A stretch of DNA of 64,000 nt from Alicyclobacillus tolerans (GTDB taxonomy: Bacteria; Bacillota; Bacilli; Alicyclobacillales; Alicyclobacillaceae). Shown here in pieces: positions 15,870-55,752 of the stretch (positions are counted from its first letter, which is position 1; every line of letters begins with the position of its first letter). The stretch covers positions 248,001 through 312,000 of the forward strand of contig NZ_JXBW01000003.1 in assembly GCF_001447355.1 (NCBI RefSeq), in the 5' to 3' direction. A model generated the notes under the pieces. That model did no database searches, was not told the origin of the DNA, and worked only from the letters and a program-made list of their open reading frames with translations. Made by a program: the position numbers and the translations under genes.

Positions 15870-16529
15870 ATGCATTTGGTTAGTCTCGGCGACTCCATCA
15901 CATATGGCGAAGGCGCATCTACTCCATCCCGCGCGTACCCCAGCGTGTTGACGGCACTGCTTCAATCACATCTCCGATCGCGCTCGTGTTGCGACGCCAT
16001 CCTCGCAGAACCAGGCTGGACAAGTACAGATTTGCTCTCTGCACTCGGTGCCGCAGGCAACCTGCCACTGACCCATGCCCGCGCGGTCACGGTTTGGATT
16101 GGTGGAGACGATCTCGCACAAGCGGCCTTGACCACACTGGCAAGCGGTCGCAAATCGTTGCCCATTGCTCCGCTCGTCTTGCGTTACAAACGGAATTTGA
16201 CAGACATTGTGCGCTTCGCACGGGCGGATAGCAGGCACGTCGTGATCGTCTGCACACAATACAATCCCTTTCCAAACAGTCCATTGGCGGGCGAGGCGGT
16301 CGCCACTTTGAATGAAGCCATCCGCTCTGTCGCGGCCGCGACCGGAGCTGCGCTCGCGCCGGTTGCGGACTGGTTTGCCGGCCGCCAAAGCGAATTGATT
16401 CGCAACTACCGCACAGGCACGATCGCGGATGCCCTACGGGGCCCCGCCCCGGTTCACCCGAACGACAGGGGGCATCGAGTGGTGGCAGAGGGCCTTTATC
16501 GCATGCTGGCACCAATCGTTGCGCACTGA
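15870..16529 (+). CDS. SGNH/GDSL hydrolase family protein
   Basis: A 219-residue SGNH-fold protein. Block I is LGDSITYGEG with nucleophile S9, block III is WIGGDDLA, and block V is VHPNDRGH with H196. The Asp usually found three residues before the block V His (D-x-x-H) is replaced by Ala (APVHP), so it may work with a Ser-His dyad or be altered. Family members are esterases or lipases; no signal peptide is present. GAGGTGAT precedes the ATG. It ends 48 bp before the split sigK. Confidence 0.85.
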   Translation: MHLVSLGDSITYGEGASTPSRAYPSVLTALLQSHLRSRSCCDAILAEPGWTSTDLLSALGAAGNLPLTHARAVTVWIGGDDLAQAALTTLASGRKSLPIAPLVLRYKRNLTDIVRFARADSRHVVIVCTQYNPFPNSPLAGEAVATLNEAIRSVAAATGAALAPVADWFAGRQSELIRNYRTGTIADALRGPAPVHPNDRGHRVVAEGLYRMLAPIVAH

Positions 16530-16577
16530 CATAGGCTAGGGCGCACTGCCCTTTCCACAGTCGGAGGTGAACGCCGC

Positions 16578-16772
16578 TTGCTGTCATTCGCCTTGGCCGC
16601 TGCTCTGATGCGAGACATCGTGCTCGCCACCGGATTTGTCAACCAATCGTTTCCGCAACCGCTCAGTAAAGACGATGAACAGAAATATTTCGACTTATGG
16701 CGCAAACACGGCGACAAGCGGGCACATGACCTGCTTGTCGAACACAATTTGCGCCTGGTTGCACATGTCGCC
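16578..16772 (+). CDS. sigK: Sigma-K, N-terminal part (interrupted gene)
   Basis: Codons 1-65 of pro-sigma-K, from a TTG start 8 bp after GGAGGTG. The first 20 or so residues (MLSFALAAALMRDIVLATGF) are the short hydrophobic pro-sequence. FPQPLSKDDEQKYF and LLVEHNLRLVAHVA are the sigma-K N-terminus and the start of region 2. At 16773 the frame enters the inserted element and continues as non-sigma sequence to a stop at 16905-16907. As it stands the gene cannot give a functional sigma factor. The rest lies at 19248-19784. Sigma-K directs late mother-cell transcription during sporulation. Confidence 0.93.
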
Positions 16773-16786
16773 AACGTGTCATCGAC
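16762..16786 (+). other. attL junction of the sigK-interrupting element
   Basis: The sigK half-site GCACATGTCGCC is followed by AA (16773-16774) and then the element-derived arm GTGTCATCGACA (16777-16788). The AA dinucleotide is the only sequence shared in register with attR. A 2-bp core matches the staggered cut of large serine recombinases. Joining at this AA restores the sigK frame. Confidence 0.75.
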
Positions 16787-16801
16787 ACAATCACCGATTC
16801 G

Positions 16802-18358
16802 TTACAGTTCGAACCGCGAACGAACTGTGAGATGCACGGATTCGCCCCTAGCGTCCAATTCAACGCGATCGATCACGGCCTCGAGCCACGCCCGACGCTC
16901 CCCGTGATCGACGTCCCTGTCGGCGAGTAGCCATGCCTCTATCCTCTCGCGCTCGGCCTTGCGCTCCGTCGCCTCCGTGCGCTTCGCGATGCAACGTCTG
17001 CACACTTGCTCGCGCAATGCATGCCAGCGAATCTCGGCCTCGCGCTTGCGCACTGTGTACGTGTTCACATCGAGATCGCCATAGGCATAAAGGGTGGCAA
17101 GTCTTTCCTTGGCCGCCTCAATCGTGGCCAATTGCGCTGCCATAAGCCGCAAATCGTATGCTGTGCCTGAATCGCCGCCGTGGATTGCGGAACCAGAGAG
17201 ATGATCCCACACGTCGTCCCAAACCTGGCTCTTCATAACCCGGTGCACGAACTCGCGCCAGACGACTTGCTCGATAGCCGCGGCTGGTACCCGTTTGCAT
17301 CGATAAGGGCAGCGGGGCGTCTGTTTGACAGCTTCCGGTGGACGCCGATACCACCGCTGTGTGATTCCCTTCCCGTTGTCAGATGCTGCACTATACCACG
17401 TCTGGTGACATATTGAGCAGATGAGGTAACCTCCGAGCAAGTGCCGTTTGGCTTTCGCCGTACGCCCGCGCGCCCGCGACCTGCGGCGAGCGTTCACGGC
17501 CTTTGCAAGATCGGAATCAACGATCCGTGGGACAGGGATGCAAATCCAGTCACTAGGTTGTCGCCACCCCACCACGATGCGCCGATTCGAGCGCTTTAGT
17601 CCAGGCACCCTGCGGGCGAGCCGCAGGGCCTTGCGGGTTGTCCTGCGGTTAAAGTACCAAGTACCCGTGTACATGGGATTGGCCAAAATGTGTCCGACGG
17701 TTGCGTGTGACCAGTTCGTGGATAAACGCGTCTTCGTGGGCACACCTAACGCATCGAGGCGTTTGGCAATTGCACGCAGACTGAGCTGTTCGTACGCATA
17801 CCATCGATATATCATGCGGACGACGGCGGCCTCACTGTCGACGATGACGAGCTTGCCGTTTTCATAGCGGTAACCATAGGGGTCAATACCTGTTGGCATG
17901 TACTGTCCGCCCTTGGCAGCCCTCAATTTTCCGGAGAGTGTTCGACGACGTATCTGCCGCAGCTCATATTCTGCAATACTAGAGATAATATGGAATAGAA
18001 GTACCGCCTCGTCGGACTGATCCCAGTTGGGCACATCGACAAAATGAAGTTCCACGCCGCATTGTTGCAATTCGCGGACGATAATCGCCTTGTCAGCAAC
18101 GTTGCGCGAAAGCCTATCGGGGTGTTTGATGACGACCCTTGCAATTACGCCGCGCCTGGCGTCATCGAGCAATGCCAACAAGGCCGGTCGATCCATGTCT
18201 TCCCCGGATGCCCCAGCTTCTTCGTACACGCGGATGTCCGCTTGGGAAGCGCCTAAAGCGAGTGCGTAGTGAATACACTGCTCACGCTGGACCGCGAGAC
18301 TATGCCCCTCAGCGGCCTGCACGCCTGTTGACACGCGCGTGTACACGGCTGTCAGCAT
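16802..18358 (-). CDS. spoIVCA: SpoIVCA-like large serine site-specific recombinase
   Basis: A 518-residue serine recombinase. The resolvase domain (1-150) has nucleophile S10 in AVYTRVST, then KHPDRLSRN and IAEYELRQIRRRT. Next come the recombinase domain (GIDPYGYRYENGKL..., ANPMYTGTWYFNRR) and a zinc-ribbon-like region, C-S-I-C and then C-P-Y-R-C near residues 345-390. A helical C-terminal part (AAKERLATLYAYGDLD) resembles a coiled coil. The ATG at 18358 follows GGGGA by 6 bp; the ATG at 18364 is an alternative. The upstream open frame does not look like recombinase. The stop lies 28 bp inside attL. Predicted role: excision of the element to rebuild sigK. Confidence 0.92.
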   Translation of the reverse strand: MLTAVYTRVSTGVQAAEGHSLAVQREQCIHYALALGASQADIRVYEEAGASGEDMDRPALLALLDDARRGVIARVVIKHPDRLSRNVADKAIIVRELQQCGVELHFVDVPNWDQSDEAVLLFHIISSIAEYELRQIRRRTLSGKLRAAKGGQYMPTGIDPYGYRYENGKLVIVDSEAAVVRMIYRWYAYEQLSLRAIAKRLDALGVPTKTRLSTNWSHATVGHILANPMYTGTWYFNRRTTRKALRLARRVPGLKRSNRRIVVGWRQPSDWICIPVPRIVDSDLAKAVNARRRSRARGRTAKAKRHLLGGYLICSICHQTWYSAASDNGKGITQRWYRRPPEAVKQTPRCPYRCKRVPAAAIEQVVWREFVHRVMKSQVWDDVWDHLSGSAIHGGDSGTAYDLRLMAAQLATIEAAKERLATLYAYGDLDVNTYTVRKREAEIRWHALREQVCRRCIAKRTEATERKAERERIEAWLLADRDVDHGERRAWLEAVIDRVELDARGESVHLTVRSRFEL

Positions 18359-18497
18359 CGGCATTCCCCGCTTTCTCACGACTATCGTGACGCCCTTGCG
18401 AATCTTGCCAAATGAGCCTAGCGAAAACGTCCTTTGCTTGTGCTGGCGACATCGGTGTGGTCGAAGTCTGCCAATCAACATAAAACAGCCGATCCAT
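18309..18497 (-). CDS. Small 62-residue ORF overlapping the recombinase start
   Basis: Its ATG at 18497 has a strong AAGGGGG ribosome-binding site 7 bp upstream. The product begins MDRLFYVDWQTSTTPMSPAQ and ends in a basic tail (RVHARVNRRAGR). About 44 codons precede the recombinase start, and the last 18 overlap it in another frame, so recombinase translation may be coupled to it. No family is recognised. It could be a leader peptide, or a small directionality factor like those that accompany some serine integrases; that function is speculation. Confidence 0.45.
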   Translation of the reverse strand: MDRLFYVDWQTSTTPMSPAQAKDVFARLIWQDSQGRHDSREKAGNADADSRVHARVNRRAGR

Positions 18498-18554
18498 GAT
18501 GACACCCCCTTCCCGGTTGTATGCGAAAGAGGAGATGTCCTAACACGGATCGGC
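18488..18554 (-). promoter_or_regulatory. Leader with 8-bp inverted repeat and sigma-E-like -10 of the recombinase unit
   Basis: On the minus strand GCATACAAC (18524-18516) resembles the sigma-E -10 element CATACAnT; no good -35 is visible. Around it, GCCGATCC (18554-18547) is the exact complement of GGATCGGC (18495-18488), which directly follows the AT of the small ORF's start codon. A read-through transcript from dedA could fold this stem over the start, while a transcript begun at the -10 would lack the first arm. Confidence 0.35.
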
Positions 18555-18583
18555 TATTGCTGCACAGGAATGAACCCGCTTAT

Positions 18584-19201
18584 TTAGTTGGTATCATCGT
18601 GTTTCGAACCTTTACTTCGCCGATGCTCCCAGATGCGAAACCACACAAATAGTGCAATCAGGAGAATGACCACGACAATCAAGAGTACAATGTGATGTTT
18701 GAAAAACGGCCAGTACTTCGTGACGAATTCGCCAATATAACGACCAGCGATAATGAATAGGCCCGACCAGACGATGGCGGCAATGGTATTAAACACAAAA
18801 AACAACCAGGGCTTCATGCGGTTGATGCCGGCGAGGTACGGAATCAGGATGCGCACACCAGCGATAAATTTGGCGATGAACACCACCCAGAGCTCATAAC
18901 GCTGAAATCGTTCATTTGCGGCGTCGAGTTTCGCTGGTGTGATACCAATGAATTTGCCAAAAAAGAGGACGATTGGACGGCCAAGATACCACCCAATGAG
19001 GTACGCAATGGCCGACCCAATCAAGTTGCCAAGGCAGCCGGCAAGCCAAAGTGGTACAAGGTGAAAGACGCCTTTTGACCACTCAATACCGGAGAGCGTG
19101 AGCGTGGTTTCCGCAGGAAACGGGAAGCCGATGGCTTCAACCAGGATGATGAGAAACACGCCAAAATATCCGTATTGATGGATGATCTCCTGAAAGTGCA
19201 C
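18584..19201 (-). CDS. DedA-family membrane protein carried in the sigK element
   Basis: A 205-residue DedA/VTT-domain protein. Segments include YGYFGVFLIILVEAIGFPFPAE, GNLIGSAIAYLIGWYLGR and FIAKFIAGVRILIPYLAG, with about five to six hydrophobic helices and a basic C-terminal tail. DedA proteins act in membrane homeostasis; several transport or scramble lipids such as undecaprenyl phosphate. The GTG at 19201 was chosen because AAGGAGG lies 7 bp upstream. That places the start only 47 bp inside attR. It is the only recognisable cargo besides the recombinase. Confidence 0.88.
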   Translation of the reverse strand: MHFQEIIHQYGYFGVFLIILVEAIGFPFPAETTLTLSGIEWSKGVFHLVPLWLAGCLGNLIGSAIAYLIGWYLGRPIVLFFGKFIGITPAKLDAANERFQRYELWVVFIAKFIAGVRILIPYLAGINRMKPWLFFVFNTIAAIVWSGLFIIAGRYIGEFVTKYWPFFKHHIVLLIVVVILLIALFVWFRIWEHRRSKGSKHDDTN

Positions 19202-19231
19202 AGAGTCGCCTCCTTGGGCTACAGCAAGTGA

Positions 19232-19260
19232 CATTGTCGACGACACTAAGAAGTTTGATA
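19232..19260 (+). other. attR junction of the sigK-interrupting element
   Basis: The element arm TGTCGACGACAC (19235-19246) is followed by T, the AA core (19248-19249) and the sigK half-site GAAGTTTGAT. Read inward on the minus strand the arm is GTGTCGTCGACA and matches the attL arm at 11 of 12 positions. Confidence 0.75.
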
Positions 19261-19784
19261 CGTCCGGGATTGATCAGGACGATTTGATTTCAATTGGCAC
19301 GGTCGGCCTGATCAAAGCGGTGGACACATACCAGCCTGCAAAAGGCACAAAGTTTGCGACATACGCCGCGCGCTGCATTCAAAATGAGATTCTTATGCAG
19401 CTGAGGGCGCAGCGCAAAACGCGTAAGGATGTCTCACTGTACAGCCCCATTGGCACAGATAAAGAAGGCAACGAAATCACCATCTCCGACATTTTGTTTT
19501 CTGAGAGCGATTCCACTGAAGATGAGGTCAGTCGGAAGATGGAAATCGACGGCATGAAGAAACTACTCGATGTGCTAGACGAACGGGAACGTCGCGTAAT
19601 CGAGTTGCGTTTTGGACTCGTAGACGGTCATGAGTGGACGCAAAACGAAGTGGCAGATCTGCTGGAGATATCCAGATCGTACGTTTCCCGATTGGAGAAG
19701 CGTGCCTTACTGAAAATGTTCCACCAATCCTACGCAGGCCAAGAACGCAAACGTGCTTACCGACATTCGCGCGCGCAATCGTAA
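19248..19784 (+). CDS. sigK: Sigma-K, C-terminal part (interrupted gene)
   Basis: Codons 66-243 of sigma-K in the frame KKFDTSGIDQDDLISIGTVG. It contains the rest of region 2 (KGTKFATYAARCIQNEILMQLR), the sigma-K-typical KTRKDVSLYSPIGTDKEGNE and region 4 (DEREREVIELRFGL-like, then LLEISRSYVSRLEKRALLKMF). It has no ribosome-binding site of its own at the junction; a TTG at 19284 has no good site either. It is therefore the distal exon-like half of the gene, joined to 16578-16772 by excision of the element. Joined length is 243 residues, close to the 241 of B. subtilis pro-sigma-K. Confidence 0.93.
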   Translation, partial: KKFDTSGIDQDDLISIGTVGLIKAVDTYQPAKGTKFATYAARCIQNEILMQLRAQRKTRKDVSLYSPIGTDKEGNEITISDILFSESDSTEDEVSRKMEIDGMKKLLDVLDERERRVIELRFGLVDGHEWTQNEVADLLEISRSYVSRLEKRALLKMFHQSYAGQERKRAYRHSRAQS

Positions 19785-49694: not shown

Positions 49695-49704
49695 CTGGCG
49701 TAGC

Positions 49705-49800
49705 GACGGCGGGCACTTCCTCACGCTGGTATTATCCAGGTCGAGTCCGAAAGGGTTGGTGACTATGTCACCTCTCAGCCAACGTCGGCACCCCTAGTCC
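49705..49800 (-). ncRNA. TPP (THI-box) riboswitch
   Basis: The minus strand carries the THI-box core: GGGGTGCCGAC, CTGAGAGG, ACCCTTTCGGACTCGACCTG, GGATAATACCAGCGTGAGG and the closing AAGTGCCC. It sits in the leader of the ykoE transporter operon and is followed by a terminator hairpin. Confidence 0.93.
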
Positions 49801-49831
49801 CCTATTCACGGTATTCCTTTTTTCATAGGCT

Positions 49832-55520: not shown

Positions 55521-55590
55521 CACAAACCACGATGAAATAACCGAACGACCAAGCCAAGGCGAGATAGACACGCCAAATCCACTTGGTTCG

Positions 55591-55733
55591 ATTCCTTCTT
55601 TCATCCGGACTGTACCGTCGGTACTGGATTCTCACCAGTTCCTGCCTATCTGGCTCGTGGACTCGCCGAACCTGTGTCGGATCACCACCGATCGGGAATT
55701 GGCCGCGTGGCCTCACCCTGCCCCGAAGGATTG
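55591..55733 (-). ncRNA. FMN (RFN-element) riboswitch
   Basis: The minus strand shows the RFN consensus in order: TCCTTCGGGGCAGGGTG, AATTCCCGATCGGTGGT, GCGAGTCCACGAGCC, ACTGGTGAGAATCCAGT, ACCGACGGTACAGTCCGGAT and GAAAGAAGGA. It is followed by a terminator and ribD. Confidence 0.96.
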
Positions 55734-55752
55734 ATTCACTTGAACATCCTTT

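Follow-up and report, generated by a model that had tools for sequence, protein, structure and literature searches.

A putative minimal skin-type element splits a second sigma-K gene across the genus Alicyclobacillus

The 48-kb skin element of Bacillus subtilis (spoIVCB-[skr-spoIVCA ...]-spoIIIC) interrupts sigK and carries a large serine recombinase gene, which adjoins the 5′ half of sigK and lies opposite to it, together with the gene of the excision factor Skr, a 64-amino-acid protein whose frame overlaps spoIVCA by 101 nucleotides via a +1 frameshift (PMC6957869). Here we describe a 2,475-bp element that interrupts a SigK-family gene of Alicyclobacillus tolerans at codon 65/66, in a stretch of 64,000 nucleotides (RefSeq assembly GCF_001447355.1, 2.81 Mb in 55 contigs; contig NZ_JXBW01000003.1, positions 248,001 to 312,000) that is called the window below. 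We consider it probable that this is a minimal, vertically inherited skin-type element, residing in a second sigma-K gene, here named sigK1, and excised in the mother cell by the element's own recombinase. Like skin, it has a large serine recombinase gene beside the 5′ half of the split gene and opposite to it, a small open reading frame (ORF) that overlaps the recombinase start in the +1 frame (by 56 nucleotides), and a proposed mother-cell promoter upstream. Unlike skin, it measures 2.5 kb, has no phage structural genes, lies at codon 65/66 and not at AATGA, the skin site of B. subtilis and B. cereus (PMC10745906), interrupts a SigK paralogue, carries a dedA gene and a hairpin around a promoter-like motif, and occurs in 14 of the 15 Alicyclobacillus genomes that we examined.

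The Clostridioides difficile element skin-Cd likewise has a serine recombinase, and a small directionality factor comparable to the candidate described here (CD1231 and CD1234), but is 14.6 kb long with 19 genes, has its recombinase gene beside the 3′ part and is absent from several strains. The gin element of B. cereus ATCC10987 is likewise a nonphage element with a serine recombinase; it has an additional factor, GirX, which would correspond to our candidate, but is 28.6 kb long, has three recombinases and is hosted by gerE. Phage MMB025 of Alicyclobacillus acidoterrestris resembles our element in having a serine integrase and in lying inside a SigK-family gene of the same genus, yet it is a 105-kb infectious phage in the other paralogue (K2). 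In the portions of the literature on which this comparison draws (PMC6957869, PMC10745906, PMC5595907, PMC5025042, PMC10747680, PMC517825, and PMC5553647), sigK elements are printed with sizes of 14.6, 21.4, 22, 38.1, 39.0, and 48 kb, besides MMB025; a Clostridium tetani figure spans ∼57 kb including flanks, and the intervening elements of other genes are, apart from gin, a degenerate 11-kb insert in kamA. The Alicyclobacillus element is smaller than every published sigK element size that we compared, which supports the view of a miniature, self-contained skin-like element put forward in a preliminary description of this DNA. Prophage content was not taken as defining for skin elements, since gin and a 22-kb B. 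cereus island have no phage genes, and on sequence comparison we regard the element as a new, minimal, genus-wide form of the sigK-intervening (skin) element. In searches of open-access literature, an Alicyclobacillus skin element, spoIVCA or interrupted sigma factor brought up only the MMB025 paper (PMC13141910), and for duplicated sigK there was no title on this order among the 15 of 16 matches listed.

By ORF and profile searches, the N-terminal 65 codons of the split gene, pro-sigma-K-like and with a TTG start (16578-16772, plus strand), and its C-terminal 178 codons plus stop (19248-19784, plus strand) flank the element (16773-19247, without strand), at the very positions given in the preliminary description, which had placed a recombinase on the opposite strand in the ∼2.5 kb between them. 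Removal of the DNA between two AA dinucleotides (16773-16774 and 19248-19249) restores a frame of 243 codons, the product of which scores 313.1 bits with the NCBIfam SigK equivalog model TIGR02846 (cut-off, 298.65 bits); the N- and C-terminal parts alone fall below the cut-off with 56.8 and 223.0 bits, respectively. The C-terminal half has a TTG-started ORF of its own (19284-19784), which could suggest that the halves act without rejoining, as a split sigma factor or through splicing at the RNA level. We hold this to be extremely improbable, as that ORF covers only positions 27 to 70 of the 71 positions of sigma region 2 (15 to 70 for the whole C-terminal frame), no intron family reached threshold in the window, and a serine recombinase with matched attachment sites points to excision of DNA. 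Between the halves lie only the recombinase gene, an ORF of 62 amino acids and dedA, all on the minus strand, with no prophage genes; dedA is the "membrane-protein gene" of the preliminary description and codes for a DedA/VTT protein (PF09335).

The attachment sites were delimited by comparison over the 14 genomes carrying the element. The attL site (16748-16799, plus strand) has the consensus GTCGC(C/T)-AA-(C/G)GTRTY and attR (19223-19274, plus strand) ends with (C/T/G)-AA-GAARTTTGA; joining at the AA is in frame in all 14 elements. We infer, by analogy with serine integrases, that AA is the central crossover dinucleotide and that the exact cut falls there. Given that attL and attR are in direct orientation, the product would be excision, and an invertible switch was rejected. 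The attP site of the predicted circle is near-palindromic, with 12 to 17 of 20 positions matching across the center in the 14 genomes; random pairs from the same elements average 5.2, and 0.19% of them reach at least 12. The arms of the attachment sites fit each other better inside a genome than across genomes, with 196 of 280 compared with a shuffled mean of 181; 12 of 20,000 shuffles, with relatedness uncontrolled, were as high. In five genomes of other genera the site is uninterrupted and reads GTNGCNAARAARTT. A search of viral contigs for the circle junction gave none, a weak negative given that its one exact pattern fits only some lineages.

The recombinase (16802-18364, minus strand) has 520 amino acids from the ATG at 18364, the likely start within a full ORF of 18505-16802. 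Domain profiles, phmmer and alignment support its reading as a large serine recombinase: PF00239 and PF07508 are found above cut-off and a zinc-ribbon domain below it (19.9 versus 25.3 bits), an RVST motif with the presumed catalytic serine is invariant in 13 aligned recombinase sequences, and the integrase of TP901-1 is matched with an E value of 1.8e-13. Its orientation agrees with the preliminary description. The gene is open in all 14 elements, its product being 48 to 95% identical to the copy in the window, and the nearest named relatives are those of A. hesperidum (95%) and A. sacchari (80%).

The recombinase also matches the phage integrase family phrog_95, and the integrase of MMB025 is 35% identical to it over 49% of the query. 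This would suit a selfish mini-integrative element whose functional site serves its own mobility, reassembly of sigK1 being a by-product. Such an origin of the pattern is quite unlikely in our view, given that the element keeps to one locus in the genus, that its trees match the species groups and that its dedA gene has a single origin. Outside the genus, moreover, only 4 of 46 genomes (G029, G045, G047, and G053) have a match at an E value of ≤1e-40, with 30 to 37% identity, and among 48 stretches of viral contigs matching a peptide pattern there was no confirmed recombinase relative, two short peptide patterns having been used. A scan of named genomes returned 37 stretches with seven recombinase relatives, all from Alicyclobacillus, although its silence outside the genus is weak because other known carriers were missed or lacking there.

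A skin-type element inherited vertically is what the distribution suggests. The cassette has the same order and the same codon in all its carriers, which include A. hesperidum, A. sacchari, A. acidiphilus, A. mali, A. fructus, A. suci, and A. fastidiosus, and its length ranges from 2,439 to 2,643 bp. Chance is no explanation for an arrangement that recurs in this way, and the reduction is not a one-off case. The check proposed in the preliminary description, a search of related genomes for intact versus interrupted sigK at the same codon, gave interruption within the genus and intact sites in other genera. An SGNH-hydrolase gene lies upstream in 14 of 14 carriers and htrA downstream in 13, the stretch of the remaining one (G012) ending before the htrA position. 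Identity of htrA correlates with that of the recombinase (Spearman coefficient, 0.62) and of dedA (0.79) over 55 nonindependent pairs, drawn from the 11 genomes in which htrA exceeds 120 residues, and the recombinase and dedA trees share their main species groups, with long recombinase branches for G001 and G005. The common locus, the single dedA clade and the matching tree groups make one insertion before these species diverged, followed by vertical descent, the most likely history.

In ten pairs of related genomes, the ratio of nonsynonymous to synonymous substitution rates (dN/dS) is 0.10 to 0.19 for the recombinase and 0.03 to 0.12 for dedA, and dN is 0 in all ten pairs over the first 70 codons of the C-terminal half of sigK1. 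Judged by this purifying selection, the element is maintained and not decaying; lying at one place in nearly every species examined, it looks like a permanently adopted, stripped-down skin switch. The dN/dS values argue against a dead remnant, in which a duplicated sigK1 was inactivated by a mobile element and its function is left entirely to the intact SigK. That explanation draws on the existence of an intact paralogue and on the fact that excision is deduced from sequence, but it is very unlikely with recombinase and dedA open in every carrier, a C-terminal half so strictly conserved, and attachment-site and hairpin arms that stay matched.

The intact paralogue lies elsewhere in the assembly (G000:C54:25142-25819), is 54% identical to the split protein and scores 329.4 bits with the same SigK model. 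A second intact sigK that makes the split copy dispensable had been named in the preliminary description as a finding that would refute it; in form there is one, but it is a diverged paralogue and not a redundant copy. In a tree of 35 proteins, the split gene shares a clade (support, 100/100) with proteins that are uninterrupted and come from eight genomes belonging to other genera of the family. The sister of this clade (87/79) is formed by two genomes of a neighboring family, each contributing one of its two SigK copies. The intact SigK clusters, at moderate support (84/73), with SigK proteins from other families of the class. From this placement we read the split gene as a lineage-specific SigK paralogue, sigK1. 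Upstream of it lies a sigma-K-type promoter-like site by pattern match, AC-N17-CATANNNTA (16511-16538, plus strand); the pattern occurs twice in the window versus 0.74 times expected and is not significant alone, since 17 of 100 shuffles give as many. By a count made by eye, CACC-N16-CATAGGCTA is present upstream of sigK1 in 14 of 14 genomes and fits the consensus of a sigma-K-type promoter.

The ORF of 62 amino acids (18309-18497, minus strand) is a candidate recombination directionality factor, proposed from its frame, its alignment and the analogy with skr. In all 14 elements this frame runs without a stop from a G-rich ribosome site at least as far as the recombinase start; in G002, G009, G010, G013, and G014, which we guess to be A. 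acidocaldarius-like, the stop codon overlaps the recombinase start. A motif RP(I/V)xV is found in 11 of the 14, and a PHROGs search gave no match to the small ORF. The likeness to skr is one of position and size, not of homology, and suggests that the product could act as an excision factor. The element is indeed reduced to a recombinase, a tiny ORF and a membrane-protein gene, as first described, but the tiny ORF, open in every carrier and placed like skr, is probably not debris.

Around the start of the small ORF, duplex energies reveal a covarying inverted repeat, a putative RNA hairpin (18472-18569, minus strand), which encloses a promoter-like motif and the G-rich ribosome site. Its left arm (within 18525-18569) can pair almost unbroken with the right arm (within 18472-18511), in which the ribosome site and the opening codons of the small ORF lie. 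Mean duplex energies of the arms are −44.9 kcal/mol for a genome's own pair, −30.0 kcal/mol across lineages and −21.8 kcal/mol after shuffling. When six lineages were represented by one genome each and the arms were permuted among them, the own pairing outdid all other arrangements (720 in total) in each of the three sets tried; in the first set the outer stem alone gave 1/720 and the inner stem 17/720. By energy, the hairpin ranks fourth of 18,246 positions scanned in the window at fixed spacing. The motif TAGGACA-N11-GCATA (18520-18542, minus strand) is a candidate SpoIIID box with a candidate sigma-E/K-type −10 region: GCATA stands in the hairpin loop in 14 of 14 elements, TAGGACA 11 nucleotides before it in 12 (TTGGACG in G005 and TAAGACA in G001), and the whole motif has a single match in the window and no match in 100 shuffles. 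GCATA resembles a sigma-E/K −10 region and TAGGACA a SpoIIID box, and the former may belong to a sigma-E/K promoter. In the IS10 transposase gene, read-through transcripts fold and thereby hide the ribosome site, and the hairpin may block translation of the recombinase from dedA read-through.

Within the element, dedA (VTT domain, PF09335; 18584-19201, minus strand) has its likely start at 19201 and its stop at 18584 and is open in all carriers. The nearest curated model is that of the undecaprenyl-phosphate transporter UptA, with 97.8 bits against a cut-off of 250. The element copies of dedA form one clade (100/99), which lies in a clade (97/98) with UptA-like copies of other genera. Among the matches listed, other dedA copies of at least 47% identity occur in 9 of 10 family genomes of other genera (G015 to G024) and in 2 of 15 within the genus (G004 and G005). 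With so few extra copies, the dedA of the element is the only UptA-like copy found, among those matches, in 12 of 14 carriers.

We propose the following course for sigK1. In growing cells and in the germ line, the gene would remain in two parts. During sporulation, a promoter within the element would drive the small ORF and the recombinase in the mother cell, and the recombinase, with the small-ORF product as directionality factor, would join attL to attR at AA. A 2.5-kb circle would leave, so that codon 65 (GCC) meets AAG AAG TTT and full pro-sigma-K1 can be made. Transcripts entering from dedA would fold and hide the ribosome site, whereas those started in the loop would lack the left arm and be translated. 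A tentative extension, which we think possible but doubtful, is a domesticated three-gene switch: a duplicated sigma-K is kept in two or three pieces, the hairpin insulates the excision genes from read-through, the loop promoter responds to the intact sigma-K or else to sigma-E together with SpoIIID, so that one sigma factor would assemble the gene of the next, and the dedA cargo, as the sole UptA-like copy of most carriers, ties fitness to retention in the germ line.

If the proposed excision is true, a minimal developmental excision switch would consist of one recombinase, a small factor, two ∼50-bp sites, and a regulatory hairpin. Being genus-wide and under selection, the element would provide a natural 2.5-kb module for asking whether such DNA is a tolerated parasite or a host-selected regulator. 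The analysis also exposes a second sigma-K in Alicyclobacillus, which bears on sporulation of these juice-spoilage bacteria.

Several observations weigh against the proposed switch. Excision and its confinement to the mother cell are deduced solely from genome assemblies, and with an intact, higher-scoring SigK present, sigK1 may be unimportant. The small ORF is weakly constrained (dN/dS, 0.28 to 0.81), and its aligned start has no ATG, GTG, or TTG in 2 of the 14 elements (G004 and G007). In 4 of the 14 (G004, G006, G007, and G012), an arm taken from another lineage gives a stronger pairing than the genome's own; the fold of the window hairpin, with the left arm shortened, has a z-score of −1.77, the six folded ranging from −1.68 to −4.11. 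Applied to a plain MAFFT alignment of this region, RNAalifold kept only five pairs; that alignment is not structure-aware, and the arm pairing was for this reason scored by own-versus-swapped duplex energies. The arm-matching shuffles leave relatedness in, for the attachment sites and the hairpin alike, and the promoter-like site has no clear sigma-E −35 region. Finally, the assembly of the fifteenth genome (G008) contains neither recombinase nor dedA, contigs down to 727 bp included. The two contigs that its sigK1 halves terminate meet 2 nucleotides before the AA core, with neither a gap nor an overlap; we considered this as direct evidence of excision and did not count it, as a lost element and a contig dropped from the assembly look alike.

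In 4 of the 14 carriers, G004, G006 (A. suci), G007 (A. fastidiosus), and G012, a further interruption of sigK1 lies near a GGCAATGA site and leaves the gene in three pieces. These second AATGA elements resemble the main one in having a serine recombinase and one or two cargo genes (two were read) inside sigK1, but they measure 4.3 to 5.3 kb, lie at the classic skin site and have a recombinase only ∼25% identical. By eye, the cargo is chemoreceptor-like in G006 and transporter-like plus L,D-transpeptidase-like in G004; a second dedA match was found in none of the four doubly cut loci.

Genome G012 also carries phage MMB025 (G012:C1:3019851-3125084), with a junction identical over 259 of 259 bp. 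The parts of the MMB025 report considered here give its site as sigK and mention no paralogue (PMC13141910). The flanks of the prophage are 83 to 88% identical to the K2 paralogue and 49 to 54% to sigK1, and these identities place it in K2, near codon 111-112 in sigK1 numbering. We accordingly rejected sigK1 as the site of the published "sigK" prophage, and with MMB025 in K2, the two SigK genes of G012 together carry three intervening elements.

Inserts in sigK1 are also seen in other genera of the family, at codons ∼111 and ∼141 and with sizes from under 5 to ∼51 kb (G033:C1:1066563-1141476, with two; G021:C73:50612-68691; G029:C1:1662210-1667592). In G028, where sigK1 is otherwise intact, two contigs share 77 bp at codon 111, near the codon of the G029 and G033 inserts; the DNA that was sequenced may have come from a mixed population. 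In G057 (G057:C1:1542782-1632419), at least four partial C-terminal SigK copies, which start near residue 60 to 65, lie in the 90 kb after a SigK-like gene that covers most of the query. Apart from the split gene, the window contains a flavin mononucleotide (FMN) riboswitch (55589-55734) and a thiamine pyrophosphate (TPP) riboswitch (49701-49805), both from Rfam.

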